A program made the position numbers and the translations under genes. Positions 14,201-63,309 of a DNA stretch of 64,000 nucleotides are shown piece by piece. The notes beneath the pieces are model-generated. The model saw only the letters and a list, made by a program, of their open reading frames with translations, searched no databases and was not told where the DNA came from. Numbering within the stretch: the stretch's first letter is position 1; every line of letters begins with the position of its first letter. Source of the stretch: Styela clava (Eukaryota; Chordata; Ascidiacea; Stolidobranchia; Styelidae). The stretch covers positions 9,672,001-9,736,000 of the forward strand of contig NC_135251.1 in NCBI RefSeq assembly GCF_964204865.1. The letters are read 5' to 3'.

Positions 14201-14449
14201 ATTTAGAATTACATATATCCAAAAAATTTCTTTAATTTATTAGCTTTTATTACATCATTTTATTACAGACGAATGAGGAGTAGCAAAGCAGCTTCAGCCG
14301 TCATGACGTTTCTTACTCGAACAACTAGGGCTGACTTGAGCTCAGCTAATTCTGGATCGGACCCCACATCTGGGGATAAAACTGCGAAATACACACATGG
14401 AAAAGATAATAATGAAAACGACACACGTGTACGCGAATCGGGAGTTTAG
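8245..14449 (+). CDS. Receptor A: class A GPCR, nine exons, 456 aa
   Basis: Predicted seven-transmembrane peptide-type receptor. Exons: 8245-8311, 8937-9093, 10946-11108, 11658-11839, 12142-12306, 12893-13028, 13451-13660, 13822-13931, 14269-14449. All introns are GT-AG and the phases join without a stop (1371 nt). Landmarks: G-N in TM1, L-A-I-A-D in TM2 (Asp84), Cys110 before TM3, D-R-Y at 134-136, Trp164 in TM4, Pro288 in TM5, C-W-L-P at 342-345, N-P-Y-I-Y at 382-386. ECL2 is exceptionally long (about residues 180-268), acidic, with a sequon at Asn250 and the likely conserved disulfide Cys264. The N-terminus is short with D-Y-D. The protein ends in E-S-G-V, a class I PDZ-ligand-like tail. 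TM2 (T-H-W-Y-I-L-Q-L-A-I-A-D) recalls somatostatin/opioid receptors, but the ligand is unknown. The start is the ATG opening exon 1, whose phase matches its paralogs. Only exon 9 of this gene was carried into the downstream tandem units. Confidence 0.85.
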
Positions 14450-14495
14450 TGTTTGCCTTTTCTGCACTCATTATAAATTCATTTCTTTGAAAGAA

Positions 14496-14501
14496 AATAA
14501 A
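14496..14501 (+). promoter_or_regulatory. Polyadenylation signal of receptor A
   Basis: AATAAA 47 bases after the stop codon of receptor A. Confidence 0.5.
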
Positions 14502-16617
14502 AGTACATTGAATGTAATTTGAAAACTATGAAACAGTGAAAACTTCGAGTTTTGAAATACTTTGAAAATTATTGAGCGTCATTGTATTCGTAGTCTTTCA
14601 TCAATATGATGTAGCGAGATTGATTATTTTTAAAAGATCTTCAGTGACCATAGATATGGCAATAAACTATAATAAAAGCCATTGATTCTATCTGCATATT
14701 TACATGCAGAACTATTTTCTTATTTGAAGTTCTCAGAGCTATTTGAAAAATTCTTCAAAATTATAATTTGCGAAATTGTTCAATGAGATGGAACTCGGTT
14801 TGTTGTTAAACATTCTTGCATCCAATGAAAGAACATCAAAAGTGCAAAATGTTCATAATATTTCTCCGGCACAACTAGTTCTATGTAACTAAAAAGATAA
14901 ATGAATAAATAAAGTTTAATTATATTTTATACAATATCAAAGATAGAGTTTTAACCCAACAATAACATATGCTGGTATGTTTCGGAAGAAATAATATAAT
15001 ATTTTGGTATTTTATTTTGTTGATATATACCCGGGCAGATGCATTTTTTGCAGTTTTGACGTATATCCCACAGTTTTTACAAATAAAAGTATACACAAAT
15101 CAAATTATATTTTGACTGACTTGAAGTCAATATATTGATATTTTTTTCAAAATCTGGCAAACATAAGCAATGCACGATATCTCCAATATTTCTGACTAGT
15201 TTATACTGTAAGAAGGTAAATCGTAGTTATTACGATGACTTACAAATATAGGTTTTCTTCAAAACAAATTATCCACCATCAAATAAAATCTCCGCTTATC
15301 TTTTTCGTGTTTGTTTCACTATATTTTTAATTTTCAGAATATTTTTTTTTCTAATGAAATAAATATACAGATAAAGTGCTTTTGTAGTAGTAAGTGTACC
15401 AGGTTAAGGTTGGGCCATAATTTCAGGTACAAATACTATACGGTATTCACTTGGCTAATCCCGGAACTCATAATATACCTAAGGAAATATATAAGGAAAA
15501 TTGGAAAAAAATAATGGCGTACACATACTAAGTTGCGGTGTCCGCCATATTGGTGCACATACTTCTTGAGCGCCAATTATTGTGATCATGTCAATTATTT
15601 CAATTCATTTTGGAATGGATATTAATAAATATTTTTGAAAGCAGATGATAAGTTATATTCTACATTCGTAATGTAAAGTTTTCATACTTGCTGTGAAGTT
15701 TTTCATTCTGAAAAAGTATGTACACCGTGTACAACTCTATACAACCCGTCAATATCAGGTAAGAAGCATTGCCTTTCTAACTTGTCACATCCCAATAAAT
15801 TTTATACCGAGAAGCCATATTATAAGTGTGGATATACAGTAAATGTGTTCAAATATTCTAAATTGTATTTACAGCAATATTAAACAGATTTAGCTGAACT
15901 TCTGTTAAAAGTTCAAAAATATTCCAATAAATATATATAAATTAAATCTCTTGGTCAAGCTAACCCGTAACACATCTGATCTATTGAATTTCCATAAAAA
16001 TTGAACAATAATAATACCGTAACAACCATAAAAATGTATATAGCTTCAAAGAATAATTTTTTTTTTAAGTAAACCGTCGAAGTGGGGCATGATATAAATA
16101 ATCTCATTTTATAGAATTATATTAACTTTATCTATATATATGAATAATATTTTCTATTCGAGATGGAGATTTTATAACTAGTATTACAAATATTTAGGAA
16201 TGAGGACTAAAAATATATACTAGTGTCCACCTTGTCTACAAAATTTAAAATAATTATCAAATACAAGATCGAATCTGATTATCTTAAACTATATTTTTGA
16301 TTTTTTTATATAAAAAATTATTACAGTATTTTCACATCAGCAAAACAAAATAATTATATTGTCAATCTTTGAAAATGTGCTGACATTTTAAAGAAGCCTT
16401 GACGACCATTTGCCAGTTTTGTAAACAAAGTGATTTCTACAAGCATATGAGCCAAACTTATTTAGATTTCACATTTGCACGGTGATGTCAAAAAAAATCA
16501 AAATGAATTATTAAACAATCTTTAGTTTAAATGGAATAAAACAACTTCTTGAGACTAAAAGCAGGATTTATTCTCAAATTAATGCGTTTTAATTACCTTA
16601 AGTAGTATACTATAGAC

Positions 16618-17240
16618 CTGTCGTCCAAACCGTGGCCCGCGGGTCACATGTGGCCTGCGCGGTATTATTCGAAGCACAAGCCACTATTGAAACATCCAAT
16701 ATAAAAATTATTCCTCGTCGTCCAAGCGCACGAGAAGAACCACTCAGCTATTGAAAGTTTTTTTAGGTCTCTTTGCGAGCGTTCTCGATGTAAAGAGATA
16801 TTTGAATTTATTTTTATCGTCTGCCATGTATTTCAATATGTTTTCCTGCCTTTTTTTCTGTGAAGCTTGAAGAGGCAGTTTTTATGATCTCAATATTTGA
16901 CCGGACTTACTTGTGCAAGCAACTTTTTTCACAGATGAACCATGTCAAATCCCCTGTGATATCACTAATTTCTGACAGTAATAGGGAAAATTCGCTTCGC
17001 ATTGCTACATCGTTCATCGTACGAATATTAACAAACTTGTTGGATAAAAGAAGTGCCATACTTCACATTGAAATATCTATGTGTACTAAAAACTTTTGAC
17101 TTTACTGTATCTTCGTATTTTCATTGTTCTCATAATTTTGTGAGTAATGAAAACTAGAACATAACTACCATGTAATGTGGCCCGCGCAATCATTCGTAAA
17201 CTACATGTGGCCCTTCGGCTATAAAGACGGGACAACTCTG
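16618..17240 (+). mobile_element. hAT-superfamily element, internally deleted
   Basis: A 623-bp insertion flanked by the exact 8-bp duplication CTATAGAC (16610-16617 and 17241-17248), as expected for hAT transposition. Both ends carry 'GTGGCCC' motifs, and the termini (CTGTCGTCC... and ...GGGACAACTCTG) form imperfect inverted repeats. A remnant of the transposase C-terminus lies inside. The homologous spacers of U3-U5 lack it. Confidence 0.75.
16860..17099 (+). pseudogene. hAT transposase C-terminal fragment
   Basis: An open frame of about 79 codons containing Y-L-C-K-Q-L-F-S-Q-M followed by N-S-L-R-I-A-T-S. It matches the pattern of the hAT C-terminal dimerisation region (Y-L-C-E-x-x-F-S-x-M ... 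L-R-I-A). The catalytic and DNA-binding regions are absent, so this is a relic inside a deletion derivative and not a functional transposase. Confidence 0.55.
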
Positions 17241-18215
17241 CTATAGACTGTTATTCACTGTCTAACCTATATTACAAACTACCTCATGCACTTTAATTAT
17301 GTTTCAATTTACAAATACTATGATTGAATAAGGCAATAAAACGGGTGTGTCAATGTCAAATATTTTATAAAGAGTACCAAAATCATATTTCACATTATTA
17401 CAAAACGTTTGCCACAAAGGGGGATGTAAAAGTATATTTTTACAAAATAGCTCTGTTTCAAAACATGTGTTAATAAATAAACCTAAGCGAATAGTTCTAT
17501 TTCTTGTTTTTATATATTTTCCTTCATCACAAAAGCTGGTATTTTTGTTCACAATATATATGTAGAGATACATATAAGTTTTCAAACTGCATTTGTCATG
17601 AAACATTGCATTCAATCCATTTTACAAATTAATATTTTGAAAAAAAGAAATAGAAAAACTCACAAGAACTATATTCTCATTATTAATGTGGATATGCCTG
17701 GAGAAAGTGAACACATTTTGTGTACAATAAGTTAGGATTGTATAAGGATTTCTAAAATATTTGAAAATACAGATTTTATTCCAGAGATTGTGAGTATTTG
17801 ACAACAATTTTGCTGATGGCTAATAACATTGCATAATAGTGGATAAAGTATCTAGATTACATTTTTGTATGAATAGGTGATAGTTCTTAAACTTCAACTT
17901 AGCATTGTTATTAATTAAGCTTCAACCGTTCAATAGAGGAAATACAAGAAACTAAAAATAGAACTGTGCTGAAACAAAATGTTTCTCAGTTTCTAACGTT
18001 CAGTTCATCACAAAAATAATAGTATAATATTCAGATTAGCACACTTGTGAAGTTACATGAGTTCTAGTAGAATAACATATAAGCAAAACGATGTAATTAA
18101 AACCAATATAGCAAAACAATCATTTTTTTTGTCTACAAGACACTCTTATAATTCAATGCCGACAAAATGTTTTATGATTTGCATTTGTGAATGACGTTCA
18201 GGAAGTTTTGGAGTT

Positions 18216-18221
18216 TTTATT
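18216..18221 (-). promoter_or_regulatory. Polyadenylation signal of receptor B
   Basis: AATAAA on the minus strand about 32 bases after the stop codon. The same placement is seen in C, D and E. Confidence 0.5.
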
Positions 18222-18252
18222 TTCTCGAAACATATGTGTTATCATTGTATTT

Positions 18253-21200
18253 TTATAGTTCTGTATCTTCTTGTACTCGGTCTTCGATTTCGTTTTCATC
18301 TTTAACAATTGTGCGCCTTGGTGATTTATTGCTACTTGAGTCAGCCTTTGTTGTCTTGCCGAGAAACGACATTATCACAGAAAAAGGTTTACTGTTTTTC
18401 ATTAGTCTGAAAACAAATATATATTTGATAAATATAAATAAAAATTTTCCATTAAATTTCATGTTTTTTTTTTATTTCAAAGTTAATCAATCGCTGGGTA
18501 GTTGTAAAGCTCAAATAACAAATATCACTTTCAAAATTTTCAAACAAATTGATGCATCCCTTTGCTACATCAGATGAATGTTAAATTTTAAGCCTTAATT
18601 TGAAATGCATTCAACTTACCTTAATTGAGTCTTAAATCTTGCAGCGATGAAATAGACGTATGGATTAATGGCAGAGTTCGAATAAGCCACAAGGGAAACT
18701 GCGTAGAAGATTTTGCTACAGAAGTCACTCTGTTAAATATAAATCAGAGAATATAAAAAGCACATACTGAAGACGTTTTTAAGAAGAAAACAACGAGCAA
18801 GTTCATACCATAAACTAGCTATTAAAAAAGTGAACAATTTTAATATTCTTCGAGTGAACAACAATATATATGTGGCCTATTGGTCATTTGAATGACTTAA
18901 TTTGTAAAAATCGAAAGATCTGTGCAAGCAATTGTATAATTATGAGGAAGTGTTGGTTTTAGGATAATTTTTATGAGTTTTCATTATTATTATAGAATAG
19001 TTATTATAGAATAGTTTCAACAAGCAGTTACTCACAGTTCCTGAAATTCCTGTCAGTTTTGCTATTTGAACAGAGTGATATGGGAGCCAACAGACTGCAA
19101 ACACGATGACTAGTATTGCGCACATGATAACCACTCTATCGGTGTCTTTATCATGTTTTGTTTTTCTACTCAATGCGTCCCCTCGAAATCGCTTTTTGTG
19201 TAAATGAACAATGATCAGAATGTAACAAGCTGCGATAATCTGTAATATCATGAAGTATAATTAATATCGTTATCAGAATGGCATAATTTCTTTCCACGAA
19301 AGAGAAGAATATTATAGTGTAACTTTTTCAGATAAAACAATATAAAACTAAATCAAACATCGAATATTGTTTATTATATCTTATGTTATCAATATTTTTC
19401 ATTATAATGCTATTTTGTTCAAGCATCCTTGTGGAAACGTAAACATACGGGCCCCAATTAGGAGGTATAGTAAGAAGCTTATTAACAATTAATAGCTCAT
19501 AAAATAATAACTCTCAAATCTAATGTGTCAGCTACAATTAATTTTGAAAATCAAATCCGCAAGTAACGTTCAATTAAATTATATAGTGACCCAATAAATT
19601 ACAATGTTTTGTGCTATAAAATTATTACTTCTAAATCTGAGGGAAATTTAATTAACAAAATGATTCCCAAATTAAATTACCCAAACCGAAATAATGCATA
19701 TAAGTTAATATATAAGATAATAGGAAGTTTTAAAGATATAATTGGCATCGTTCAATTGATCAATCGACATTTATTTTCATGCATGGCCGAGCGTGTATCT
19801 TCTATGCTTTTACCAACTGCCTGTAACTGTTATTTATTAATTGGCAAAGATACAAATATTTAATAGACCAGAATATTGGGTCAATTATAGGTTATTGGAC
19901 TAATTATGTTATTGTCTTATTATGCAAAATATCGCTCAAAATAACTAGTAAATATGAAGCGAAGGGTACAACTTTCATCAGTACAACTTAAAACTCACCA
20001 TGAAAGGGACGATGAACATCACGATAAAATTAAAATAGAGAAATCCAATAAATCCCAGGTTATATTTGTTATATTGACACCCTGGATTAGGAGTTTCACC
20101 CGACTCATCGCTTTCTGATAAGGTTTCTCCTGGGTAATCACTATAAAAAGATAAGTTTAAGATAATTAAACTTAAGATAGATAAGTTCTGAGTGCGATAT
20201 AAGTCAACTCTATGAAATATATAAATTTATTAAGAAGGCTTTGTGAACAAAAAGAATGTATTTCTGTTAATTAATTTGAGATCAACGCTTGTAGAAACAC
20301 GTTCAAATGATAGGCACAAATCAGAAACTTCGAAAAACGATGATAGCAAGAATGAAATCAATCATTCGTGAAAAAATAAGAATAGTACACATTATCATCT
20401 GGCGGCGAACAGGCAGGCGATTTCTCCTTGTTGGTCATGTCTTTCATACATTCGTCGTAACCGTACCCTGATCCAGAATCATTGTCGGGATGGTAATCTT
20501 CCAAGCAAATATCGTGAGCTTCCATATCGAGACCATACTCGGGGAATTGCAGTCTAAAAATGATGGTTCTTATGGGTCTGGCAGTAAGAAACGTGAAATT
20601 TGATGTTATTCAAAAGTTCGACCCTCTGATCTTCCTGGCATTTAACATCAAAAATGAATATATAGTGACCAATCTTTAATCAACGACATTAAAAAATCGA
20701 CATAATATATATCAAAATAAACATATACATGGGGAAATTTGAATATTTATTTCCGGTAAATAGATGATGATATATGATGAGATGTTTTGAAATATGGTAA
20801 TACCTGTGTTTTAGCAAAAATTATTTATCTTCACATACGCAAAAAAAATAAAATTTAAAAGTTTCTCACGCGCATCTACAAAAAGGTTCACGTCCTCGTT
20901 TTGTGCTGTACATCATAATAGGTGTACATATCAATATAGCAACTGTCCATACAATAGCAGTAATAATATAAGCTGCTTTTGTAGTTCGTAATTTTTGCAA
21001 CCGGTCTGAGAATGCGTGACACACTGCAATGTAACGATCCAAAGCCATCACCTAAATGCACAGAGATATTTTAAGTGTTAGAATTGTATTTTAACTAGCA
21101 TTAATTCATTGGCAAAATAGATTCGGATTTGATACGAAAACAAAAATAATGCAAGAACCCTATTCATTTTTATTCCAAAATCTGAATTAGCCCTAAAATT

Positions 21201-23861
21201 CGAACTATCCTGCCTAATCATTTGAAAAACATTAATTAATAAAAAATCCGCCGTGTGATCAACATTGAAATCAAATCATGTTATGGTATTATATTATGAC
21301 TTACAACGATACAGTTTATAGAACAAACAAATACAGAAATATATACGTAATATGGACTTGTTAATAATTACACACACTAGAAAATCCTACGAAATTTTCT
21401 CTATACATGATTGCATCAATCATAAAAAATGGTTTCGTATAACCTATAGAGGCAATTCTCAGGAAATGTTTGCACGTGTTTGTGTAATAGTTGGACCGCG
21501 ACCCCTATATATTGCCATTGTAATAGCAAAGTATTTGTTATTATCTTTTTCCGAAATTGACGTTCGTATCCTCGGTCATTATGGTCCAGAGACCATCTTT
21601 TGATCTGGGTTTCAAAGCTGTACCTATTTGACTTATAATTTTAGGTAGGGTCCTGTGTCAATTTTTACATTCAACTGTCAAATTAATCTCTGAATATGAC
21701 GTAAACTAATTTGGTTTTACTGGGGCAATATGCGACTAATCATTTTCATGTAATTACTCAAAATCAAAAATCTATCCTTTCAAATTCTACGGGTGCTAGG
21801 TAGTAATCAATTAATTTGAAGTACGCATTACTTTATTTTATGTTTCCTCTGTATCAATCATGCTTTGTTTGTAAAATGTAGCCTTACGAATTGCAATAAG
21901 GATTTTATCAGCTTTTTTTGTCGATAACCCATCAGTCACATTTACCACATAACACCAAGCGTGAGTGATACAGGTCCACGCAACTTAATATATGAAATTG
22001 CAATACAAAATAGTATCGGTGCTAACACTACTTTACTTTTTTACTAAGATAACCAAATGAAATAAAAAATAATTTACCGTGAGGAAAGAAATTGAACTAT
22101 AATAGTTTATGATTAAAACAGTTTCTTTTGCTTTGCACATCCCATCTGGAAATATCCATGCGTTGTTAACATCTTCAACAACTTGGAACGGGAGAGTCAA
22201 AAGAAACGCAGAATCAGCAATGGCAAGCTGAAGAATATACCTATAAAAGTGTCATAGGTTAATACTATAATTTTTGAATACAATTACTTTGAAAAAAATT
22301 GTTGTAGGTTTAATTGGCGTGATCGCCCAGTCATTTTAAAGGTCCTGAAGTATATCTTTTGAAATCCGCGCATGCTTGCACATGTATCTGTTAGATGCAG
22401 AGGCGTGAGGATAAGCGTAGTATAATGAAATATACAATATTTTTATGAAGACCTCGTTGATGACGTAGTTAATATTAGAAAACATTGAGTACGTGTTGAA
22501 AAGCGTTAATTTTTATTTAGACATAAACCAAAATTACCATGTAAGGTCTGAAAGTAATATATCACTTGTTCAAAAATACGCATAGGTCAGATATTATAGA
22601 TTGCTTTCTTTACAATTTAAAACATAAACAAAAGAGATTATCAACGCCATTTTCATCAGCCAAGCATCCACATAAATTGCATTTATCAATGTGTAACTCC
22701 TTTTTTAAATTCAGTTGCACAACATTGTTTATACACAGTCAGTGCCAGAAATCATTGCGCGTATAGCGTAATTCGGAAGTTATAGGTAATGTTAATATAT
22801 TCTAGATCGCGAACACAATTCTAGATTTCCCGGGAAACTGGCGGTAGATTTGGGACAAAACTGGGCATGTATGTCTGAAATGGAGTCCACATAATCCCGA
22901 AAGTCAATAAATTTTGTTGTTGTTTGCATGTCTCATTTGTAAATGCAGTCTGAGTCTGTCTATTCGGAGTAAAAGACGTTTGCAAAATTGCAAAGTCTAC
23001 ATGTTTACAAGTACGAATAGGTCGGATATTTGGTAAGGCTTTCTTTGCAATTCAAAACATAAACAAAAGAGATAATAAACGCCATTTACATCAGTCAATC
23101 GTTTACATAAAATGCTTTTACCAATGTGTTACTCCTTTTTTAAATTCCGTCAGCAACAAAATCATTGCAATCACGATAATGTTCCCCAAAACTCCGACAA
23201 CACAGACAAATATTCTGAAAGCATTTATCGCTAGAAAATCTGGATCCAGTGTATATCCATAGTTTTCATTGATGTGATTGTAATCTAATTTGAAATGTAA
23301 CATTATTTTGTAATAAAACAATGAAAACGAATCAGACTGTTAAAATTAGTATACTTAATGTACTTATTGATATGCCCCTAAAGGTAGCTTAAAATACCTT
23401 AAATAAAATTAAGATAAAAACAATTGATTAAAGAAAACTCTCTTTTTTATACTTCTATAATATAAGTTTATATACTATCGGAGAAGGTGATGGGATTTTT
23501 TTTTACCCAAAAACGTATTTTAAAATTTAAATAGTGTTTTTTGCTAGTGAGGAAACACTAGCGAAGTATTTATTTATCTAGCTATCTTGAGACTTATATA
23601 GTATATTACTATATCATCATTAAATATTCATCATTGTCTCAAAACGTTTTAGCTTGGCAAAGATACGTTTTTGAATATTTATTCAAATATGTGTACAAAT
23701 AGATTGGTATTATTTATGATTTATACTTTTTCAAAAAATCACATATAGATAACTAAACAACAAAATCAATAACAAGGGTTACCTGGATATGTTGTAGCAA
23801 TTTCATAACTGGTAGAAATATTCAATTCAATTGGCTCGGAGTCACCAAACGTCTCTGTCAT
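18253..23861 (-). CDS. Receptor B: class A GPCR, nine exons, 453 aa
   Basis: Minus-strand paralog of receptor A with the same nine-exon plan. Exons in transcript order: 23783-23861, 23122-23284, 22078-22240, 20870-21051, 20389-20553, 19999-20140, 19036-19239, 18620-18729, 18253-18406; total 1362 nt, open throughout. Landmarks: L-A-I-A-D (Asp90), Cys116, D-R-Y at 140-142, C-W-L-P at 348-351, N-P-Y-V-Y at 388-392. The N-terminus has an N-I-S sequon. Exon 5 gives most of a long acidic ECL2 with L-E-D-Y-H-P-D-N-D and Y-G-Y-D-E-C, plausible tyrosine-sulfation contexts. It ends D-T-E-L, class I PDZ-ligand-like. It faces receptor A tail to tail; a piggyBac insertion lies about 340 bp upstream of the start. 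Ligand unknown. Confidence 0.85.
22567..22717 (-). repeat. Duplicated exon 2 3' end inside intron 2 of receptor B
   Basis: This segment repeats 22990-23153, which includes the 3' end of exon 2. On the minus strand it still reads E-F-K-K-G-V-T-H, but the following donor is ATAAATG instead of GTAA. It is a decayed partial exon within the intron; equivalents exist in C and D. Confidence 0.5.
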
Positions 23862-24198
23862 TTTATTAGCAAGTTAGTAAAATATATATGTTACAAATAT
23901 ATTCTTCAAAAAATAAATACACGCAACCATTAAACCATTCGTCAAAACATACGAATCATTGCACTGTCAAAAGACAAAAAATATAGTTCAACGCAACTTC
24001 CGTTATTTTTCAAATTTCTGAGTGCAAACTGAAGGAGTTCATTTTAAGAAATTGAGACCGGGGTCACAAATAATTTATTAGCTACCATTCTGTACAAAAC
24101 AAATATAAATATTTATCATATCTGAGAAATTTGTTTAATCATATTATATCGAAGGCTGGTAAACTCGAATACGGAATAACAACTTCATATCGACAACT
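23862..24198. other. 5' flank of receptor B
   Basis: AT-rich upstream DNA homologous to the flanks of C, D and E, ending at the TTAA target of the piggyBac insertion. An AT-rich tract (TATATAT-like) just before the start codon is conserved among paralogs, but it lies too close to the ATG to call a TATA box. Confidence 0.45.
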
Positions 24199-24918
24199 TT
24201 AACCACTTAACGACGACGGGGTCGTTTTCGGGACATTGACTTTATTGCACCCCATAGTACGAACCAGGATAGCTAGAGAGAAAGCGGCGATTGTCCCGAA
24301 ATCGTCTGTACCCACTCTCTCGTTTGAGCATATTTAGCGCCACCAAATGTTTCATATTTTGTGGTCAGCCATCTTTGTTTACATTGATGTCGGTTGAAAT
24401 GTGATGTCTGTAGCAGTCGGATTTCGTCGTCTTTTTTGGGGTATAAAGCTTTACCCCAGAGAGTCGAAAAAAATCACAGTAAGAGGCCGTTATGTGTACT
24501 TTCATTTGGTGAAAAGAGTTTTGCCTAACAATTAGTTGTTTACTGCTGACGCCAGTTTTCCCAACTGTCACTAAATCGTCCCATCCGTCCATGTTTTGCA
24601 GTTTAAGTTGTCTTTCATAAACCAAGACACTTGAAATTGAAGAGCAGAAATAGGAACATAATCTAATATGTTTTAAGTATGTGTAACTCTGTTATCGAAA
24701 TTTATATATAGTGAAGTTTAATTAGTTAAAATAATGTCTTTCCCTCTAAACCTGATAATATTTTGATCAAGTTTTGCTTCTGATGTTGACTGGCTAAAGC
24801 CTAAAGTAATGATAATATTTTGATCAAGATTTGCTTCTGATATTGACTGGCTAAAGTAATATGCAGGAATTTCTTCAAATTGTTTAGTGGTAGAAGTAAT
24901 TTATTCAAATAATGAAAA

Positions 24919-26747
24919 ATGGATGAGAAGGAGAATTGGAGAATTCGTATTCCACCTAGTGGGGATGTTAGCGAAGACAGTGACTGCAGCAGTAGCGAAG
25001 ATGAATATGTACCACCGAAAAAGATTAGAGACTATGCCTTGTTGTCAGAAAGTTCAGATGACGAAGCTGCTAGTCAGGATATATCCATTGACCAGGGAGG
25101 AGAAAGTGATCAGGAAGCAAGAGGGTCAGGCGAGATGTCAGTTTCTTCCGTGGTTGAAGTCGAGGTGTGTATTGGAATCAATATCCCACGTAGGAAGCCC
25201 GTATGGAGGATTGTACAGGAAAGTGACCCAGAATCAGCACGAGAGCTGCCTGCATGGAAAGGCCGTGAGTATGAATCGGAAACAGTGCGAGCACCAATTG
25301 AATATTTCAAATATTTTTTTGACTCGGATGTAATGCACCAAATAGTTGCGGAAACCAATATCTATGCGAGCCAAAGCGATCCCTCCAAACAACTAAACCT
25401 TACAATTCCAGAAATGGAGAAGTTTCTTGGTTGTGTCGTTTACATGTCTATTTTTCGTCTACCGAGAACACGCATGTTTTGGGCTGTGGAAACAAAGGTT
25501 AACTGCGTTGCCGATGTAATGACCCGTGATCGATGGGAAAGAATAAAAAAGATGCTCCATTTCAATAACAACGATTTACTTCATGGCGATTCTGATGTTC
25601 AACAAAATCGATTGTTTAAAATCAGACCCCCGTTAGAAATGCTTAAAGCAAAATTCAAACCACTGCATCAAGAGCAAGTTTTATGTATCGACGAGCAGAT
25701 GGTTCCGTTTACTGGGAGGTCAGGGCTGAAACAATATCTTCCCAAAAAGCCCCACAAATGGGGTATAAAATTTTTATGTTGTGTGGAACAGATGGTTTGG
25801 TACACAACTTTGAAATATATACAGGAAAGATACATCCTGTTTCTGGTTACCCTGATCTCGGAGCTAGTGCTAACATAGTCATCAAACTGACCGATAATGT
25901 GGAGAATGATGTAAATCACATACTCTGTTTTGACAATTGGTTTACGTCCATACCTTTGATGTCCGTTCTCGCCAAAAGGAAGATCTATTGTATAGGGACG
26001 GCGAGACAAAATCGGTTATTGGGATGCGAGCTGGAATCTGACAAAGATTTGAAAAATAGAGGACGGGGATGTTATCAGGAAAAGACGTCATGTGTTGAGG
26101 ACACTGAAATAAGAGTTGTGAAGTGGTATGATAAACGAAGTGTAACTATTGCCAGTTCTTTTGCCAGCGCCATGCCCACATCAGAAGTCCGAAGATGGGA
26201 CAACGTCACGAAACAGCACATAATGGTGACTCGTCCTTTTATGGTAGATTTTTATAACCGTAGCATGGGAGGCGTAGACTTGTTAGATGCGCTTATAGCC
26301 TACTATAGAATACGCATTCGGTCAAAAAAGTACTACCTGAGGATCTTCTTCCACCTGGTTGATTTGGCTATTGTAAACAGCTGGATCCTATACAGAAGAG
26401 ATTGTGAGTCCCTGGGAGTTGCGAGTAACAAGCAGCGAGATCTTTTATCGTTTCGAAGTTCGGTGGCAGAATCTCTTTGCAAGCTTGGGAAAATATCGAC
26501 TCCGCTTAAGCGAGGCAGGCCATTGTCTACTACCCCACCACGAATCAGAAGAATAGCTACTCCACATCCCAACAATGAGGTTAGAACCGACGCCACTGGC
26601 CATTGGCCTGTGGTAGAAGCTAAGAGACAGCGATGTCGTTTCCCTGGGTGTGATAGCAAGCCGGTAATCAGATGTACCAAATGCGGAGTATATTTATGTT
26701 TAAACAAAGCCAAAAATTGCTTTGCGTGGTACCATGGCGTATATTAA
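24919..26747 (+). pseudogene. piggyBac transposase with one frameshift
   Basis: DDD-type transposase that would cut and paste the element at TTAA sites. The first frame runs from ATG 24919 (acidic Ser-rich N-terminus, then the catalytic region) and the second carries on to 26747. The three expected aspartates are present: Asp in C-I-D-E-Q (codon at 25690), Asp in F-D-N-W-F (25932) and Asp in G-G-V-D-L-L-D (26277). The C-terminus has a cysteine-rich zinc-binding region (C-R-F-P-G-C, C-T-K-C). The frame changes in the T-run at 25771-25775, after the P-H-K-W-G motif, consistent with loss of one base. It is otherwise full length, so either recently inactivated or affected by a sequencing error in the homopolymer. 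Confidence 0.85.
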
Positions 26748-26859
26748 TGACCAACAGTACGGTCCACTGAACATTTTCTGTTGTCCGATTTCGTTTATTT
26801 TGAATTGAATTTGTTATATTCCCATTCGTATCAGTCGCAATACGTGTGAGTATTGACAC

Positions 26860-26865
26860 AATAAA
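26860..26865 (+). promoter_or_regulatory. Polyadenylation signal of the piggyBac transposase
   Basis: AATAAA about 113 bases after the transposase stop codon, within the element. Confidence 0.35.
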
Positions 26866-27037
26866 TTCATCACGTGGACGAGTGTATCGATTTCGTGACA
26901 AAAATTTTTCTCCCAAATGGGGGGTAAAATAAAAAAAAATAAGTTTGAATTCGTATTCTACGGCCTTGAATTAGCAAATAACCGAAGCGGCGATTTTTTT
27001 CTCTCAGCGGATCATAATTCCGGCATTAAGTGGTTAA

Positions 27038-27675
27038 TTTTCAAGAAGCTAAATATATTATTGATTAAAGTTTTTCCGTTTTGCTGACAATACAAAATTG
27101 ACATTTAAAATAGTAAATTTTATAGTCTCAACTCAAAGTATATATGTATTTGAAAACCTCGAACTGATTATAATTCTATTCTTGTCTATAAGCTGTTATG
27201 AGTTGAAGGCAGAAAATTTAGGTCACATAGCAATAGTATATATTTTATCTCCTAAGTAACCTTAAATAGCAATAACTATCCGATATACCCTCAAGTATTG
27301 ACTTCAAAAGAAGCCATGACTGAAATCAATACAGTATGTTTCGCTTCGATTTGAATTCTCTAGCTCCGTACGTATACGTTCATATCCGAATGTCACGTTT
27401 CAGAAGGTCATTATTAAGATGGCGTATTGTTGCAGCCATTCTTCGCTAAGTCTATAATACAGTCTCATTCTCGATCTCATACTTGTCTCATACTCGGTGA
27501 ATGACTTTACTTAACTTCTCACAATCCTCTAATTCTGAGAAAAGCAGAATTCCCGGGTTTCGATTTTGTGATAATAGTAACAAATTTTGTTCTTTACCTA
27601 TTCACAAATATTTTGTCTTCGTGTTTACATTGCTATAGTTTAACTCAAACTGTGAAACTTGGCCTCTATCGTGTG
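27038..27675. other. Remaining 5' flank of U1
   Basis: Homologous to the distal flanks at 40.2-40.87, 49.4-50.06 and 61.6-62.18 kb. It ends with 'acttggcctctatcg' just before the first orphan exon 9. No gene seen. Confidence 0.5.
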
Positions 27676-28552: not shown

Positions 28553-28654
28553 TTTATTTAGCAAGTTTGTAAAATATATACGTTACAAATATGTTCCTAA
28601 ATAAGAAAGACACGGAAACGTAACTTTTGTTCGTCAAACATTTCATTGAAATAT

Positions 28655-52411: not shown

Positions 52412-55400
52412 CTATTGTCCAGTAGCTTCCTGTACTCGGTCCTCGATTTCGTTTTTATCTTTTCCAATTGTTTGCCTTGGTGATTTATTGTTACTTGAGT
52501 CAGTCTTTGTTGCCTTGCCGAAAAACGACATCATCACAGAAAAAGGTTTACTGTTTTTCATTAGTCTGGAAACAAATATATGTAAATTTTTCTGATTAGC
52601 TTTCATGTTTTTTTTTTCATATTGTAAAAATACATCTATCGGTGAGTAATTGTAAAATCCAAATATTCTACATCACTTTCAAAATTTACTAAACAAATTG
52701 CTGCCTTTCGTTAAATAAATACTGCTAAAGCAGGGGTGGGCAAACTGCGGCCCGCAAAGAAAATTTGTGCGGCCCGCAGAGAAGTGTCAATTTTGAATGG
52801 TATGCCCGCGAAACGAGTTTTCAGTTTAGTTAATCTGGTATGCGAACAAATGCTTAATAGTAACCGATATTACAACTGTTTTCTTACATTAATGTAAACG
52901 AGGGCGTCTTCGGAGCACCTCACATTTTTGTAAACGTTGCGCGGCCGCACGGGTGTCGGGTAATACGTGGCCTTCAAACGCGCCGCCGATAACGCGCTTG
53001 GGTTTCGCACGCCGTTGCACGTTACGCCCATATTATTATCACATGTACATGAGTATTGTCCTTTTTCACTTAATTCATTTTTGTTACAATTCAATATGTT
53101 TCTCCCATTTCCAAAATCATTCAATAGTGTTATTGTCGGCACTATAATAACTAAATAGTATATTTTCATCGAATCGAATAATTTTAACGAATTGACGAAT
53201 ATTGGGTTGAATTCGGGATTTTATTCCGATTTTTATTTTTTGGGTCGGCTTTGATCTTTCTGTTACAGTTTTAAAATTAACTGTCATAATTTTAAGCTAA
53301 AAATATTATCATTTTTGACGCCGGAATGTGGGTATTTTTCAAGACGATAGTTGACATTCTTGATTTTATTTTCTATTGTGGCTGTTTTATTTTCGTATTC
53401 AAATAGTGAATAAAAACCCTGCAAATTCATTGCGTGAATCCTAAATTCTATTTTGAGTTCAAATTATGATTAATTTGTCGGCAATAATGGCAATTCTACT
53501 AGTCAAACAATAATAGTTCCACTTAGTCTGACTGATTCAAACTGTAAGCGTGGATGTTTTTTTTTTCAAAATAAGTATTAAATGAAATGGTATATCCTAC
53601 AATTTGTGAGAATATCTATATGTGAATAACAAATCATTAAAATCCCGAGATTTTCAGGAAATAATTGCGGAATCGGGATTGAAAAAAACAGCCCAAACCC
53701 GGGATTTTGGGATCGAGATTTCCCGGGGTCCCAACTCTACATAGCACGGTACCTGATTGAAAAATACTCAGTTCGCACGTTCCGTAATCTGACAGTAGGT
53801 CTATAATTTAGCGAGGTCTGATAGTAAAATGGAGGCAAACAAACAGCAAAATATTATCCAGTTCGAACAGCTCTCCTTCGCCTTGCAGAAACTTCATTAG
53901 AACAGCGTTTAACATGTTTAATATATAATAAAAGACAGCAGCAAATTTCTCAATAAATTGGATTGTCCTTTTCTGCATCGCCTATTTTTGTCCTAATTGC
54001 ATTCCTTTAAATACATTGTGTTCATGACATTTTGGGTTAATTTTGAAGGTCCGCCGGTCCGCAAAAATTATTTTGAAATTTTACCGTTCCGCGTACTGAA
54101 AAAGGGTTGAGAACCACTGCCCTCAGCAATGCCGTAAGATCAATACCAAAACGAAACAATTTTTTGTGCTTGCAACTACAGTATAAACTCTATCTACAAA
54201 ATTAATTAGTTCCTGAAACTCTTTCATAGGTAGAAAATTCCGTAAGTAGGGACGCATTTTACCTGTAATTGCGCTAATACGTTCTAAGCCGCCACAAAAC
54301 CCGAACATAATATTTGTATAAATTATAATATTGGTTAAAACACGTAGCGAAAACACGTTAGAATTATATTACTGCATAATAAATAGAAAAGGTACACACG
54401 GAACAAAGAAAGAACATAGAAATACCGAATAAAAACAACGAACGGTATGTTTGTTTACTTTTGGTATTGGTCGACTAGGCTAGGCTAAACGCTAGCAACA
54501 CATTGTACGTTCCCGCGGGAAACAAACGGGCTAATGGGAAGGCGAATTTATATTAATTTATTGCTGCGCCGCACATGACTGGCTGTCTTCGATTACGATA
54601 AAAAATATAATAGATGTAGAATGATTTAAATCAAAACGTGACGGCGACGCTAAGATATGTGCGCCATGTTCGATATTCTCATAAACACAAAAAACGATAT
54701 TCGAAGGTCGCGATTTCTGTATATTGAACTCAAATTGGACAACCCTTCTCCAAGCACTGCATTGAATTAACCTGGAATAAACAAATATACCTATACACGT
54801 TTTTTAAGTTTTCGTTTTTCAGCCTTTTGTATGTGAAAAAAATCTTATGTTAGCCGAATAAAAGAATTTTCGTAAATTAGATTTTTCGTATCCAGGGCCT
54901 TTCGTAGGTAGAGTTTCTAGGTGCGTCCCGCGGACTCACCCAGTGACTTGTATCTAGCCCGCTTGTAATAAAAGTTGCACACCCCTGTGCTAAAGCATAA
55001 AATAAATGTTAAATTGCATTAAACTCACCTTAATTGCGTTTTAAATCTTGCAGCAATGAAATAGACGTATGGATTAATTGCAGAGTTCAAATATACCATA
55101 AGAGAAGCCCCGTAGAATAGTTTGCTGCAGAAGTCACTCTGTTAAATATAAATCAGAGAATTTTTGAGGCACATTTTTGAGGAAATTTTTAGAACAAAAA
55201 CCACGAGCAAGTTCATAACATAACCGAGCGTATGAGAAAATTGAACAATTTGAATATTTTCCAATTGGACAAGAATATATGGTGGTTGAATAACCTCATC
55301 CCTAAAGGCCGATAGAGCTGTGCAAGCTATTAACACATTTTTCAGAAATGAACATCTTGATCTTCGGTCATTATGGCCCAGAGACCTCTTGGTCAGGGTT

Positions 55401-58400
55401 CCGAATCTGTACCTGTTTTACTCATGATTTTATGCAGTGCCTTGTGTCAATTTTTACGTCAAGCTGCTGTCAAAAAAATACTATTCTCTCAAAATATATA
55501 AATGTGACATAAGCAAATTTGAATTTACTAGGACAGTATGCGATTTTCTCATGTTCATGTAATTACTTAAAATCCAATACTTTTCGTTTCAATTTTGTCT
55601 AGAAATTCATAACATAACCGAGCGTATGAGAAAATGGAACAATTTGAATATTTCCAATTGGACTAGATTATATCTGTGGCCATATTCGTCATTTGAATGA
55701 CCTCATCTGTAAAGGTCGAGGGAGCTGTGCAAGTATTTGAATACTTTTATGATATTGAAGAGCCGGTCGTTGGAAACGTTTTATGTAGTTTTTAGCTAAA
55801 ACTAATATTATGGTATAGTTTCAGCGAGCAATTACTTACCGTCAGTGTTCCCTCTAAGGTGTGCGCGTGTGCGCGCGCACACAGCTTTCAGAGGCTGCGC
55901 ACATGCATAGATTTATTGCGCACAGACGTATTTCGATGTAATGTAACAATGTGCTCGGTTGGCAGGTTGAGAAAGTTTGTTGTTGGCTCACTTATTATCC
56001 GGTTAGAACGCCAAAATTTCTTCATTGGTTTTTGCACAAATATTAGTCATTTCCAAAAAAGTGCGCACACACCAAAATTTCTGCGCACACATACTACAAA
56101 AAATTAGAGGGAACATTGCTTACCGTTCCTGAAATTCCTGTCATTTTTGCCATGTGAACAGAGTGATACGGAAGCCAACAGACAGCAAACACAATGACTA
56201 GTATTGCGCACATAATCATCACTCTATCGGTGTCTTTATCATCTTTTGTTTTTCTACTCGATGCGTCCCCTCGAAATCGCTTTTTGTGTAAATGAACAAT
56301 GATCAGAATGTAACAAGCTGCGATAATCTGTAATATCAGAAAGTATAATTAATAATGCTAACAGAATGACATAATTTCTTTCCACGAAAGAGAAGAAGAT
56401 TATAGTCCAACTTTTTCAGATAAAACAACATAAAACCGAATAAAACATCAAACATTGTTTATTATTTGTTATATTATTTTCATTTATCATTTTAATGCTA
56501 TTCCGTTCAATTCTCTGTGTCAACGGACATATACGAGCCCGTGGTAGTAAGTATAGACAAAGAAGATGGACCTGCAGTTCAATACACAAACACTGTACTT
56601 ATCTTATAATAATATACCAACTAAATTATTTAGTGACATGAAGAATTACAATGCTGTGTGCTATAAAATCATTGCTTTCTATCTGAGGGAAATTTAATTA
56701 GTAAAATGATTTCCAAAAATAAATTACTCAAACTGAAATAATGCATATATATATGATAACATAAAAAGATTTATAAAGATCATCGGCCGCCGTTTTATTT
56801 TTTTTATTTTTATGCATGGCCGTGTGTGTGTCTCTGCTATGAATTTACCAACTGTCTATGTCTGTTATTTTTCAAATATTTTGCATACTATTACGTATTT
56901 ACGTAAATTACATACATTGAAAAGATAAGCACATTGAGTCAATTACAGGTAATTTGAATAATTAGGACATTGTCTCATTATGCGAAATATCGAACAAAAT
57001 AACTAGTTACTAGTGTATATCAACCGAAGAAAATTAAATTATCCAATTGAATTGCTTCAAGTTTAAGTATAGGTACAACTTACAACTCACCATAAAAGGG
57101 ACGATAAACATCACGATAAAATTAAAGTAGAGGAATCCAATAAATCCCTGGTTATATTTAATATAATGACACCATGGATGAAGAGTTTCACCCGATTCAT
57201 CACTTTCAGGTTCTCCGCTGTAATCACTATAAATAGATAAGTTTAATAACTTCTGAGTGCGGTATAACTCCACGAAGTATATAAATAATTAGGGTTTTGT
57301 GAAAGAAAGGAATGTATTTTTGTCAAATAATTTGAGTTAATGCTTGTAGAAACAAGTTCAAAATGATAGCCAAGGATCAGAAACTTCAAAAAACAATGAC
57401 AGCAAATTTAAAATCAATCATTCGTGCAAATGAAACATACTAAACGTAATCTTCTGGCGGAGAACAGGCAGGAGAGTTGTTCATTTCGGCCATGTCTCTT
57501 ATACATTCTTCGTATGTGTACCCTGATCCGGAATCATTGTCGGGATAGAAACCTTCACCCAAGCAAATGTCGTGAGCTGACATTTCGGGACCATACTCCG
57601 GGAATTGCAGTCTGAAAATAATAGTTATAATAGGTCTGGCAGTAAGAAACGTTCATTTTATGTTCTTGTAAACATTCGATCATCTGATCTTCCTGTCATT
57701 TTGGAGGTCTCAAACAAATTTTAAAAGTGTATATATCGATACCAATCTTAAATGTACGACATTAAAAAACATTCATATTTATCATAAAAATAAAAAAATA
57801 AATATATTCCTTCATTATATTTCGTGAATATCTAATGCTTCGTTTTTATGTCATTCATACTAGCACCTGAAATTAGGCAGAACAAAGCAAACGAAGCAAA
57901 TTTCTTAATTGTAATTAAAATAAATAAAATTCATTTTGGAAAAAAAATATATTTATTGAACATTTACGTTGTAATAAGCAATAAGAATTTTTCAGAATAT
58001 TTAACATGAAGCCTTCATTTAGCTCTTGAAGTCATTTTGAATAGTTATCAATTGTGTTTTATTGAGATATATTTTTTTTTTTTCAGGTTTTTTAATTTTA
58101 AACCTGAACATTAGCAGCAGATTTTATTGTCACAAAATTAACGCTATTCACATCGGCTGCTTCCAATAATTGATTGAACGTTTGATTAGTATATCTCCAG
58201 TCAATGTTTTAATTTGTTATCATTTATTTCTTTGTACGGCTTTCAAAGTGTACAATTATTGAAATATGGAAATGATTGTGGCTGAGCGAAAAATATTTGT
58301 TTTCGCATACGCCCTAAAAAATTAAAATGTTTCTTACTCGCATTTACAATAAGGTTCACGTCCTCGTTTTGTGCTGTACATCATGATAGGTATACATATC

Positions 58401-61312
58401 AATATTGCAACTGTCCATACAATAGCCGTAATAATATAAGCTGCTTTTGTAGTTCGTAATTTTTGCAACCGGTCTGAGAACGCGTGACACACTGCAATGT
58501 AACGATCCAAAGCCATCACCTAAATGCACAGAGATATTTTAAGTGTTAGGATTATAATTTAACTAGTATTAATTTATTGAAAAAATAGATTCCGATTTGA
58601 TACGGAAACAAAAACAATGCAAGAACCCTAATCATTTTTATTCCAAGGTCTGCATTAGCCCTAAAATTCAAAATGTCCTGCTTAATTATAAGAAAAACCT
58701 TAATTAAAATATTTCCCGTCGTGTGATCAATATTGAAATCAAATCCTTTCATGACATTACATTATGACTTACAACGATACAGTTTACAGAACAAACAAAT
58801 ACAGGAATATACGTAATGTGGCCTTACTAGTTAATTACAGTAGGAAGTCCTAGGAAAATTCTCCATACATGATTGCATCAATCATAGGAAATGGTTTCGT
58901 ATAACCTAATTAAGACGCAATTCCTAGGAAATGTTTGCACGCGTTTGTGTAATAGTGAAAACGCGATCCCTATTTTTCGCTACAGTAAAACCAAGCAGCT
59001 ATTAACACATTTTTCAGAAATGAATTTTTCGATCCTCGGTCATTATGGCCCAGAAACCATCTTTTGGTCAGTGTTTCGAATCTGTACCTATTTTACTTGT
59101 GATTTTATTCAGTGCCTTGTGTCAATTTTTACGTTAAGCTGCTGTTAGAAAAATACTATATTCTCAAAATCTATAAACGTGACATTAACAAATTTGAATT
59201 TACTGTGACAACATGTGATTACTCCATTTCATGTAATGACTTCAAATCCAATATCTCTCGTTTCAAATTCGACTGCTATAGGAAGTAATCAATTATTTAA
59301 AGTACGCATTAATCACTCTTAATTTCCCTGGGTATAAACATGCTTTCGTTTCTAAAATGTACCCTATTTGAATTGCAATACAGATATCTAACAGCGTTTA
59401 TTGTCAATAGCCTAATCACGTTTATTATATCTCACTAAATTATTCAGGCTTAAGCAACTTAATATATAAATAAAAATTGTATAGGTTCTAACACTACTTA
59501 AAAATTAAATAATAAAAAATACTTCACCGTGAGGAAAGAAATTGAACTATAATAATTTATGAATAAAACAGCTTCTTTTGCTTTGCACATCCCATCTGGA
59601 AATATCCATTCGTTGTTAGCATCTTCAACAACTTGGAACGGGAGAGTAAGAAGAAATGCTGAATCGGCTATTGCGAGCTGAAGAATATACCTATAAAACA
59701 GTCATGGGTTATTACTTGAATTTAGATGTCAGCAGTTATTGTCCAGATGGGAGACAAGTGGGAAACGTAAGACAATTGGGACATTTTCGCAACAGAATTA
59801 ACATGATGCACAGTGAGAGCCAATAATGGCTGCACGTATTGCGTATGTCGTGTGTGAGGCAATAATAATATATTCTGGATCGCAAACACAATTCTAGCGT
59901 CTTCTGGAAACTGTCGGGCCCATCCAGACGAAACTTGGCATGTAGGTCTGGAATGGTGTAAACATAACCCAAAAAGTCATTTAATTTTGTCATTTTGCCT
60001 GTCTCCTTGTAGTCTTTTTTGTCGAACACTAAGCCTGAATTTTCATAAATTTAATAATTGTTTATTTAATTGTATTCCAATGGGAATCCCAGAAGCCTGG
60101 ACAGGCGCAAATTCATGTGGGATGAGATGGAACTGAAAATTATGTTCTATGTACAAGCCTGAATACCAGTGGCTGCTTCAGAGCTAAAGATATGCGAATA
60201 AGTGTCGAATATATTTTTAAAGTACTATTGTTGACGTACTTATTATTTGATCTTCGTTGAGTACGTAGTTAAAAACGTTCCATTGTCAAACTAATATAGC
60301 AAAATGGCAATGCACAATGAGTCCGAAAGTAATATCTCACTTGTGTACAAGTACGCATATATCGGATATTAGGTTATGCTTCCTTTACAAATGAAAACGT
60401 AAACACAAGAGTATCATCGCCATATTCCTTAAACAAGATTCAACTCAAAAAATGTTCAAAAGTAATATTTCTCTTGTTTACATGTACGCGTAGTTCGGAT
60501 ATTAAGTCATGTTTCTACTACAATTCTAAACATAAACAAACACGATTATCAACGTTATTTTCATTAACCAAGATTCAACATAAAACATTAGATGTACTTA
60601 CCAATGTGTGACTCCCTTTTTAAATTCAGTCAGCAACAAAATCATTGCAATCACGATAATGTTACCAAAAACTCCAATAGCGCAGACAAATATTCTGAAA
60701 CCATTTATCGCTCGAAGTTCTGGATCCAATGTATATCCATCGTTTTCATTGGTGGGATTGTAACCTAATTTGAAACGTAACAATATTCGTATTAGAACAA
60801 TATAAAAAAAAAACTTGAAAATCAGACTGTTAAAGTTACTATATTTACTATACTCATTCATCGCTTAAATGACCTCAAATAAAATTTAGTCAAAAATGGT
60901 TAAGAAAAGAATTTTTTTTTCATAAGTTCATAAAATATGAGAAGATGTTGTCATTTATAACATATCCCAAAAACGTTTCAAAAATGTTAAATACTGTTTT
61001 ATGGTCGCGAGGAAACATTAGCAAAGTATTTATTTATTTAGCTAACTTAACACTGATATACCATTAATAATTATTCATCATTTTATAAAAGCGGATTTGC
61101 TTGGAAAAGATTTGTTTTTAAACACTTGGACTAAAATTTGGGAACAAATAGACTGTCATTATTAATAATTTACATCTTTTTGAAAAATCACAGATACAGA
61201 TACCCATATAACAAAATCAATAACAAGGGTTACCTGGATATGTTGTGGCAATCTCATTACTGGTAGAAATATTCAATTCAATTAGCTCAGAGTCACCCAA
61301 CGTATCTGTCAT
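52412..61312 (-). CDS. Receptor E: class A GPCR, nine exons, 453 aa
   Basis: Exons in transcript order: 61234-61312, 60602-60764, 59528-59690, 58338-58519, 57441-57611, 57091-57226, 56124-56327, 55029-55138, 52412-52565; 1362 nt, open throughout despite three intronic rearrangements. Class A landmarks are intact. Exon 5 is 171 nt, the longest of the set, with a new N-N-S sequon and E-D-Y-V-Y at its end. Exon 6 is 136 nt as in receptor A. Intron 8 holds a hAT nest, intron 7 a copied piece of intron 3, and a MITE abuts the exon 7 donor, which is kept as ACG|GTAAGC. It ends A-T-G-Q like D, without a PDZ-type tail. Several exon 2 and 6 residues (E-L-R-A-I-N-G-F, T-L-H-P) resemble receptor A more than B-D. 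Ligand unknown. Confidence 0.85.
52731..54987. mobile_element. hAT element with nested relics, in intron 8 of receptor E
   Basis: A 2257-bp insertion flanked by the exact 8-bp duplication TGCTAAAG (52723-52730 and 54988-54995). The ends are CAGGGGTGGGCAAACTGCGG and ...GCACACCCCTG, typical hAT termini. The interior includes a second hAT-like end at about 54084-54119 (GGTTGAGAACCACTG) and a 'cccgggattttgggat' repeat region near 53.7 kb, suggesting nested older elements. No intact transposase frame seen. Confidence 0.8.
55211..55750. repeat. Intron 7 local duplication enclosing a copy of intron 3 sequence
   Basis: 55211-55325 and 55605-55750 are two copies of the same intron 7 segment ('ttcataacataaccgagcg...'). 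Between them, 55326-55604 matches intron 3 of the same gene (about 58998-59275; shared 'ggtcattatggcccaga', 'ccttgtgtcaatttttacg'). The other receptors have a single intron 7 segment and no intron 3 copy. Confidence 0.7.
55843..56118. mobile_element. hAT-type MITE at the exon 7 splice donor of receptor E
   Basis: A 276-bp element with termini CAGTGTTCCCTCTAA and TTAGAGGGAACATTG, flanked by the 8-bp duplication CTTACCGT (55835-55842 and 56119-56126). The interior is rich in GTGCGCGC-type palindromic sequence. No coding capacity. The duplication contains the 5' splice site itself. Confidence 0.85.
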
Positions 61313-63309
61313 TTTATTTAGTAGATAAATAAAATATATATGCGACAAATATATTCTTAAATAAAAAAGATACACAATCATTAAACACGTTTGTAAAAAA
61401 ATACGAATCGTTTCATTTAAAAAATCCAATAGACAATTTTATATATTTTATCACAACTTTCCGTTTTTTTACGTTAGCTATCATTCTGTAGGAAGAAAAT
61501 CAAAACTGTTATCATATCTGATAAGTTTATTTTAAATATATTATCAACATATCGTAGCCTCGTGAACTCGAAGACCCGAATTACAACTTTCACATCAACA
61601 ACTTTCATTTTAGGAAGCTTAATATATCAACGATTAAAGTTGTTTTCATTATGTCTGACAATTAAAATTTGACATTAAAAATGTAAAAATTTAAAACTCA
61701 AACTATAAAAATATTGGAGAACCTCGAACTGAATATATTTTGTCTATTTTGTAAGAGATCAAAAGCAGAAAATATACGTCATATATCAAAAATAGATATT
61801 TGATCTCTCTAGGAATAACTAACTATACGATATAGCCTCGAGTCTTGGCTTCAAACGTACTACAATTTCTCTGCTGCAATGGACGATACGAAATAAATTA
61901 AACAAATCCGAGACAAAAATTCTTACTACACGTGCGTTATGCCCGACTGAAATCAATACAGTGAGTTTCTCTGTGATTTTAAATTCTTATAGCCCTAACA
62001 TCTACGTTTATATCCGGATGTCACGTTCCAGAACGTCAGTAATAAAAAATTGTACTGTTGCAGCCATATTTTTGCTAAGTTCAATATAGATATCTTATTG
62101 CATACTCGAAGACTATCCTTACTTTAACTTCTCACAATTATCTCATTCTAAGGGAAAACACAATGCAGTCAAACTTGGCCTCTAGTAAAACATATGTTTT
62201 CAAATCTGATATCTGTCACGATTTGTTTGTGGCTTATAACATGACTGCATGAAAAATGAAAAAAAAATAGTAACAATTGCGTAAATACGTAAAGAGAAGT
62301 TTCACAAACGTGACATTTGGCAGTTGAATTTATTTTTAACGTCGTGAATTAGAATGAAAATTTTCCAAGCAAATTTACATCCAAATTAGTAAAACATTTG
62401 CTCTAGTAAATTCATTACGCCATTCCAACGAGGACAAGGCCAAATATGGTACAGACAAAAATACTATCAGTGTTTCCACGGTCAATCAAAAATATTCCAA
62501 GAAAGTAACATTCTTCAAAAATCTTTATTATAAGAGGTAACTTAGATGAAAATGATGTTTTCCTGTCACTCAAAGTAAACGTGAAACTGTAAACCATTTC
62601 TATAAAACGTTAAATTTCAGTTATCTAAAGTAAAAGCAGCCACCCTCACATGCTGACTCAAGTCCAATTAAAAATTATCTATCTGAGCGATTTAATAAAT
62701 TTTCCTATTTTAACAAGAATAGTCATGCATTAGCACTAGAATTAAATATAACGTTATTTTAATAAATCCATATATTGTAAAGACAAACATCTCATAAATA
62801 AATTTGAAATGAATAAAATACGTTTGAAGACAGTAATTCATTCAGAAATCATTGTTATCGGTGGGTTGAGAAGAATATCCCTCATTAGAGAGATGTAAGT
62901 TGCCTAGAAAACAATATTGGCGTTGAAAATACGCACTTAAACCACTCTAAATTAGCCTTAATTTAATGCAAACTTTGTAAATTCAGTGAATAAAGATAGC
63001 ATTTCGAAGGCCTTCCATATCTTAAACATGTCGAAACACTCAAATTAGGATCTGCAATCAAAAGCTTTTGCTTGCTGTTATAATTTTTGTTCCAGCGTAT
63101 TATGTCGGCATTTGAATACAATACCGCGTTCATCATCAAGTAAACTATAAGATATTAAAAGTGCTACACATTGAATCGAGTTAAATTTTGCTTTTGGAAG
63201 CTTATCCAAATCGATTAAGGCTTTTATAGTCTTAAGTGTGTTTTAGCGTAAAATACCTGATAATATGCAAAATTTTAAAGCGGGCATAATATGATTTATT
63301 TTGTGTATA

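Follow-up and report, generated by a model that had tools for sequence, protein, structure and literature searches.

A tandem receptor array in Styela clava and the record of its growth at a recurrent seam

How does a block of tandem receptor genes come to carry stranded pieces of a neighbouring gene between its copies, and how much of that history can still be read from the locus itself? In tandem gene families of some age, the traces of origin have often been erased. Here, we analyse a 64,000-nucleotide stretch of the Styela clava genome (assembly GCF_964204865.1, contig NC_135251.1, positions 9,672,001 to 9,736,000), hereafter the window, to which all coordinates refer. We consider it very probable that the array in this window arose by one illegitimate tandem duplication of an A/B-like receptor pair, followed by unequal crossover and gene conversion. 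The copying process is an ordinary, textbook one; it is the clarity of its record that is unusual. Since the original join, both outer ends and chimeric inner units survive, how a receptor family was born and grew becomes readable, and relatively datable, from a single locus.

Receptor genes and the layout of the array

Five receptor genes are present in the window; their exons were delimited manually on the sequence.

8937..14449, plus strand: receptor A, exons 2-9 (translated exons with GT/AG sites; PF00001, 1.4e-54)
14269-14449, plus strand: exon 9 of receptor A, which forms the left edge of Unit 1
18253..23861, minus strand: receptor B, nine exons, 453 amino acids, open frame
33374..39071, minus strand: receptor C, nine exons, 453 amino acids, open frame
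43021..49036, minus strand: receptor D, nine exons, 448 amino acids, open frame
52412..61312, minus strand: receptor E, nine exons, 453 amino acids, open frame, with a dispersed repeat in intron 8

Exon 1 of receptor A was searched for and not found. In receptors B to E, GT/AG splice sites accompany all of the nine-exon structures and the frames of 448-453 codons are open. Receptor A, which the profile scan covered, scored 185.8 bits against PF00001 (cut-off 30.5), and the alignment of all five receptors contains DRY, CWLPY and NPYIY or NPYVY, corresponding to the DRY, CWxP and NPxxY motifs of rhodopsin-family GPCRs. On this basis, A to E are classed as rhodopsin-family GPCRs. Among solved structures, receptor E is matched best by somatostatin receptor type 2 (9.6e-41), with other somatostatin, nociceptin and opioid receptors as the next closest. 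By sequence similarity the array receptors thus resemble the somatostatin/opioid group, and they may bind a somatostatin- or opioid-like peptide. When compared with receptors of this type, to which E is linked by its match to the type 2 somatostatin receptor structure, the array receptors have a long acidic second extracellular loop that spans exons 4-6. In exons 5-6 of A to E (for example 57091-57611) this loop contains a conserved SGSG/LGSG stretch and tyrosines, and its length differs between the receptor copies.

Protein identity is 84-92% within B to E and 67-71% between these receptors and A. Synonymous distances are 0.10-0.25 within B to E, whereas those between A and the others are saturated (2.7-3.4; undefined for A-E), which indicates that the A/B pair is much older than the array. 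The dN/dS ratio within B to E is 0.31-0.49 in all six pairs, so the four receptors are kept by purifying selection. Further relatives lie on several contigs of the 376.6 Mb assembly, with at least 96 matching pieces, array pieces included, among the 93 of 172 candidates scored.

Self-BLAST revealed a collinear pattern which, together with alignment of the units, resolves positions 14269-62184 into a tandem array of five head-to-tail units.

14269..27675: Unit 1, the real exon 9 of A, the A-B intergenic region, receptor B, and a flank with a piggyBac-like insertion (self-BLAST and unit alignment)
27676..31095: Unit 2, an orphan exon cut after 127 bp, a deleted receptor body, remnants of exons 1 and 2, and a flank with an element bearing terminal inverted repeats
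31096..40867: Unit 3, an orphan exon whose native stop was removed by a deletion also present in Unit 4, receptor C and flank
40868..50062: Unit 4, a frameshifted orphan exon, receptor D and flank
50063..62184: Unit 5, an orphan exon (open frame, 3-nt insertion), receptor E, and on the right a flank that ends in GGCCTCTA and is interpreted as the original one

The receptor-bearing units measure 9.2-13.4 kb. The array thus contains four intact-looking receptors (B to E) and one gutted copy, in Unit 2, where the receptor is lost beyond exons 1 and 2 and the exon 2 remnant carries two in-frame stops. An initial annotation of this DNA had described a five-unit tandem array of a tail-to-tail receptor pair. 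The five units are borne out by the self-alignment, but only four of them hold a receptor. Similarly, the A/B pair is real, but it is the sole such pair, the other units consisting of a receptor and an orphan exon.

Two of the units carry insertions of their own.

24199..27037, Unit 1 only: piggyBac-like insertion with TTAA, 17-nt inverted ends that are 88% complementary, and a transposase in two overlapping frames
29735..30485, Unit 2 only: 0.75 kb element with 29-nt inverted ends that are 90% complementary

The piggyBac-like element looks broken, since its transposase is split over the two frames. Receptor E contains further repeated sequence: the dispersed repeat in its intron 8 (52840-54119) has at least 96 matching pieces genome-wide among the 40 of 3292 candidates scored, and two direct copies of about 270 bp (55325-55592 and 58997-59266), 86% identical, both lie in introns of this gene.

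The seams and the orphan exons

All four inner joins follow the same order: a flank ending GGCCTCTA, a 7-nt filler, and then ACGAATGAGG, with which exon 9 of receptor A begins. The string GGCCTCTATCG occurs four times in the window (at 27661, 31081, 40853 and 50048), in comparison with a mean of 0.00 in 100 shuffles, and GGCCTCTA has a fifth occurrence at 62177-62184, to the right of receptor E.

27669..27675, plus strand: filler TCGTGTG, seam between Units 1 and 2
31089..31095, plus strand: filler TCGGGTA, seam between Units 2 and 3
40861..40867, plus strand: filler TCGGGTA, seam between Units 3 and 4
50056..50062, plus strand: filler TCGGGTG, seam between Units 4 and 5

Across the four seams the filler is identical at five of its seven places and variable at two, and the seam falls on the same base in every case. 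In receptor A itself, exon 8 ends with CAATTAAG followed by GTAAGT, and exon 9 starts with ACGAATG preceded by TTACAG. The join is absent only at the outer ends of the array, where the real exon 9 of A stands on the left and the flank beyond E on the right. The orphan exons begin at 27676, 31096, 40868 and 50063, as first annotated, and each of these is the base matching 14269, the start of A's exon 9. The 11-letter junction word that had been noted before each orphan exon is found at all four seams, but it is a composite, GGCCTCTA being flank and TCG the start of the filler. The closing word described after receptor E is also present, one base to the left of the annotated 62178-62185. Junctions differing in position between units had been named as evidence against the initial reading; on alignment no difference was observed at any of the four.

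The flank to the right of E matches the other units through GGCCTCTA and then diverges. Its final match comprises only 14 letters (AAACTTGGCCTCTA) and comes after about 100 bp that are gapped in E's flank when it is aligned with the other units, and the exact end of E's flank therefore rests on a short match. Measured in Unit 5, the upstream distance from the first coding exon of receptor E to the seam is 872 bp (61312 to 62184). When the parental break sites are placed side by side, they have no shared run at the break, with the 7-nt filler in between. A templated source for the filler was considered and rejected: near the two parental sites, the longest matches to the filler, edges included, are 6 nt (A) and 5 nt (E), lengths reached by 448/1000 and 990/1000 shuffles, respectively. 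Likewise, the exon-boundary location of the seam could suggest an RNA-mediated origin, which we rejected because homology continues through intergenic DNA and intron-bearing receptors. With random breaks in A, a break at an exon boundary has a probability of about 0.9% (counting ±1 base at each of 16 boundaries over the 5513 bp of A), a coincidence that the one-join model does not explain.

The case being built on the assembled sequence, an artefact, with haplotypes duplicated or reads wrongly joined, was considered as an alternative. A seam probe run over the 376.6 Mb assembly gave five candidates, all of them in the locus: each of the four seams and exon 9 of A. All four places matched by an exon 4 probe are inside the array. 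Among the 40 of 69 candidates scored for a probe of the array-end flank, the array copies were recovered and no match elsewhere exceeded 54 bp. Collapsed or duplicated haplotypes had been raised in the initial annotation as an objection to its own reading; the probes revealed no second copy of the seam and, among those 40 of 69 candidates, none of the array-end flank. Moreover, the units differ by 3% to nearly 40% (500-column windows, with windows of misaligned insertion set aside) while all lying on one contig, and they have private insertions and a private deletion. An assembly artefact is consequently extremely improbable.

The orphan exons themselves look dead. The splice acceptor AG is missing in all four, whereas A's own exon 9 is preceded by TTACAG, and hence they cannot splice at the native site. 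The copy in Unit 2 is truncated (127 bp), that in Unit 3 has lost the native stop, that in Unit 4 is frameshifted and that in Unit 5 is open. A deletion at the end of the exon is common to Units 3 and 4 and absent from Units 1 and 5, Unit 2 being cut before the site. It could be argued that the orphans function as alternative last exons of A, or as short genes, given that the frame in Unit 5 is still open and that none of the five copies of exon 9, A's included, varies over the initial 29 nt (4/100000 permutations). This is highly unlikely in view of the lost acceptors, of the damage to the other three copies, and of dN exceeding dS in two of the three orphan pairs computed, albeit over few sites.

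Conservation is not confined to the exon. From the exon's first base, the four seams share an invariant run of 35 columns (25/10000 permutations), and the 65 columns before it have 1-2 variable positions per window of 19-27 columns, compared with mostly 3-13 per window farther away. This conserved patch extends over 27611-27704 at the first seam, and likewise at the other three. Local gene conversion or retained function could be the cause. We think it highly improbable that the roughly 95 bp at the seam (about 65 bp of flank, the filler and at least 29 nt of exon 9) constitute a functional DNA element, acquired or partly original, kept in every unit; if so, the segment might serve, for instance, as a regulatory element situated between adjacent receptors and derived in part from a dead exon.

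Outer ends and chimeric inner units

Descent of all seams from one join predicts that left ends bearing the seam resemble one another more than they do the left end at A, and that right ends bearing it resemble one another more than they do the flank of E. Distances and site counts were computed after dropping columns gapped in any compared unit, and Unit 2 was excluded from the left-end table and from the site-pattern analysis, as it has too little sequence. At the left ends, K2P distances from Unit 1 to Units 3, 4 and 5 are 0.333-0.372, compared with 0.095-0.160 among Units 3 to 5, and the smallest outer distance exceeds the largest inner distance in 500/500 bootstraps. Realignment gave 0.296-0.325 versus 0.095-0.158. 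Restricted to the exon's initial 127 bp, the outgroup test succeeded in 163/500.

At the right ends, Unit 5 is 0.256-0.297 from the others, versus 0.084-0.244 among Units 1 to 4. With five units, the mean outer distance exceeds the mean inner distance in 1000/1000 replicates and the strict test holds in 522/1000; with four units the corresponding values are 991/1000 and 381/1000, and the point estimates narrowly fail the strict test (smallest outer 0.264, largest inner 0.268). The weakness of the strict result reflects the flank of Unit 1, which is also well diverged. In the adjoining part between exons 2 and 1, the strict test holds in 974/1000. These values, computed with the inserted sequences removed, supersede an earlier right-end run in which the piggyBac-like insertion was misaligned (26/500; 431/500 for a subset). 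Overall, the two outer copies are the most diverged of their part; the left one behaves as a clear outgroup, and the right one may be an outgroup, with weaker support.

These results bear on whether a fragile site was instead used repeatedly, by separate duplications, which would make the seams alike without their stemming from one event. Breakpoints can cluster at breakage-prone sites, as discussed by the authors of the yeast CUP1 study (PMC4232551). However, all four seams carry one 7-nt filler, with only two of seven positions variable, at the same exon base, and in the mean test the seam-bearing flanks group together against E's flank. Recurrent duplication of this kind is very improbable and close to refuted.

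When misaligned units cross over, the left part of the new unit comes from the right-hand parent and its right part from the left-hand parent, and the two parts are equally old. Unit 3 groups on its left side with Unit 4 (0.095) and on its right side with Unit 2 (0.071-0.084); Unit 4 groups on the left with Unit 5 (0.160) and on the right with Unit 2 (0.145-0.166). Both are thus left/right chimeras with a similar age on the two sides, which fits unequal crossover. In agreement with this pattern, the deletion on the left is common to Units 3 and 4, while a stretch of about 0.75 kb on the right side is present in Units 2 and 3 only. Among 307 informative sites in Units 1, 3, 4 and 5, 133 join Units 1 and 3, 121 join Units 3 and 4, and 53 join Units 1 and 4. 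Along the unit the pattern switches sharply, sites of the first two classes falling in clusters (maximum chi-square 67.3, 0/5000 permutations), with Unit 1-like tracts in Unit 3 near receptor exon 9 and, in a long tract, over exons 6-2. These tracts point to gene conversion or further crossovers.

Three observations run contrary to a simple history. The orphan exon of Unit 2 is nearer to that of Unit 4 (0.049) than to that of Unit 5 (0.131), the third grouping retains its 53 of 307 sites, and the distance between Units 3 and 4 falls to 0.029 over receptor exons 8-7, such that ages have been blurred by later conversion. An alternative is that break-induced or rolling-circle replication added the copies, from which identical seams and tandem units would also generally be expected. 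Such replication would tend to copy whole units, whereas the inner units here are left/right chimeras with similar ages on both sides, a pattern that gene conversion after whole-unit copying could nevertheless mimic. We regard this route as unlikely and favour crossover between misaligned units.

In the sequence of events that we propose, the start would be an old tail-to-tail pair of rhodopsin-family receptors, A on the plus strand and a B-like gene on the minus strand. A break about 0.9 kb upstream of exon 1 of the minus-strand gene would have been joined, through the 7-nt filler, to a second break falling on base one of exon 9 in A, so that each new unit would gain a whole minus-strand receptor and a stranded last exon of A devoid of its splice acceptor. 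Misaligned crossovers and gene conversion between units would then have raised the count to five and produced chimeric units, and one unit would have lost its receptor body. Receptors B to E are held by purifying selection while the orphan exons decay. End-joining is our inference for the joining chemistry, any number and order of the crossovers would be provisional, and the extra receptor copies may have been useful. The initial annotation had likewise proposed one join followed by unequal exchange. The loss of the receptor body in Unit 2, the filler and the mosaic structure had escaped it, and its interpretation is nonetheless well supported by the shared seam and filler, by the outgroup position of the left end, with weaker support from the right, and by the chimeric inner units.

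Comparison with known arrays

No published description of this locus was found in the part of the literature covered. The closest described case found is the CUP1 array of Saccharomyces cerevisiae. CUP1 arrays arose by nonhomologous joining of ends that share little or no homology, and in one repeat type the seam holds an extra base; the breaks lie inside neighbouring genes, so that units carry gene parts; and unequal crossover is named among the ways in which existing arrays change (PMC4232551). The same text gives units of about 1.2-2 kb, 0.5% divergence and five types (PMC4232551). The Styela array resembles CUP1 in its nonhomologous join and in breaks within neighbouring genes, with all four inner seams here at the same place. 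In contrast to CUP1 as described there, it is old (K2P about 0.3 at its ends), of one seam type, partly decayed, and has receptor-bearing units of 9.2-13.4 kb.

The Sdic cluster of Drosophila melanogaster is related in kind: its description reports a unit derived from two neighbouring genes, tandem expansion and widespread gene conversion (PMC7475035). All three features are common to the present locus; however, Sdic is described as a new chimeric gene (PMC7475035), whereas here the fragment of the neighbour looks dead and the receptor was copied whole. The present locus also illustrates how a piece of a neighbouring gene can persist for a long time as a marker inside an array, and although the mechanism is textbook, the legibility of this locus is unusual.

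Two minor features lie in the window outside the array. A gene for U3 small nucleolar RNA is present at 123-333 (87.1 bits), and a 44-bp stretch at 62572-62615 recurs at many other places in the genome.
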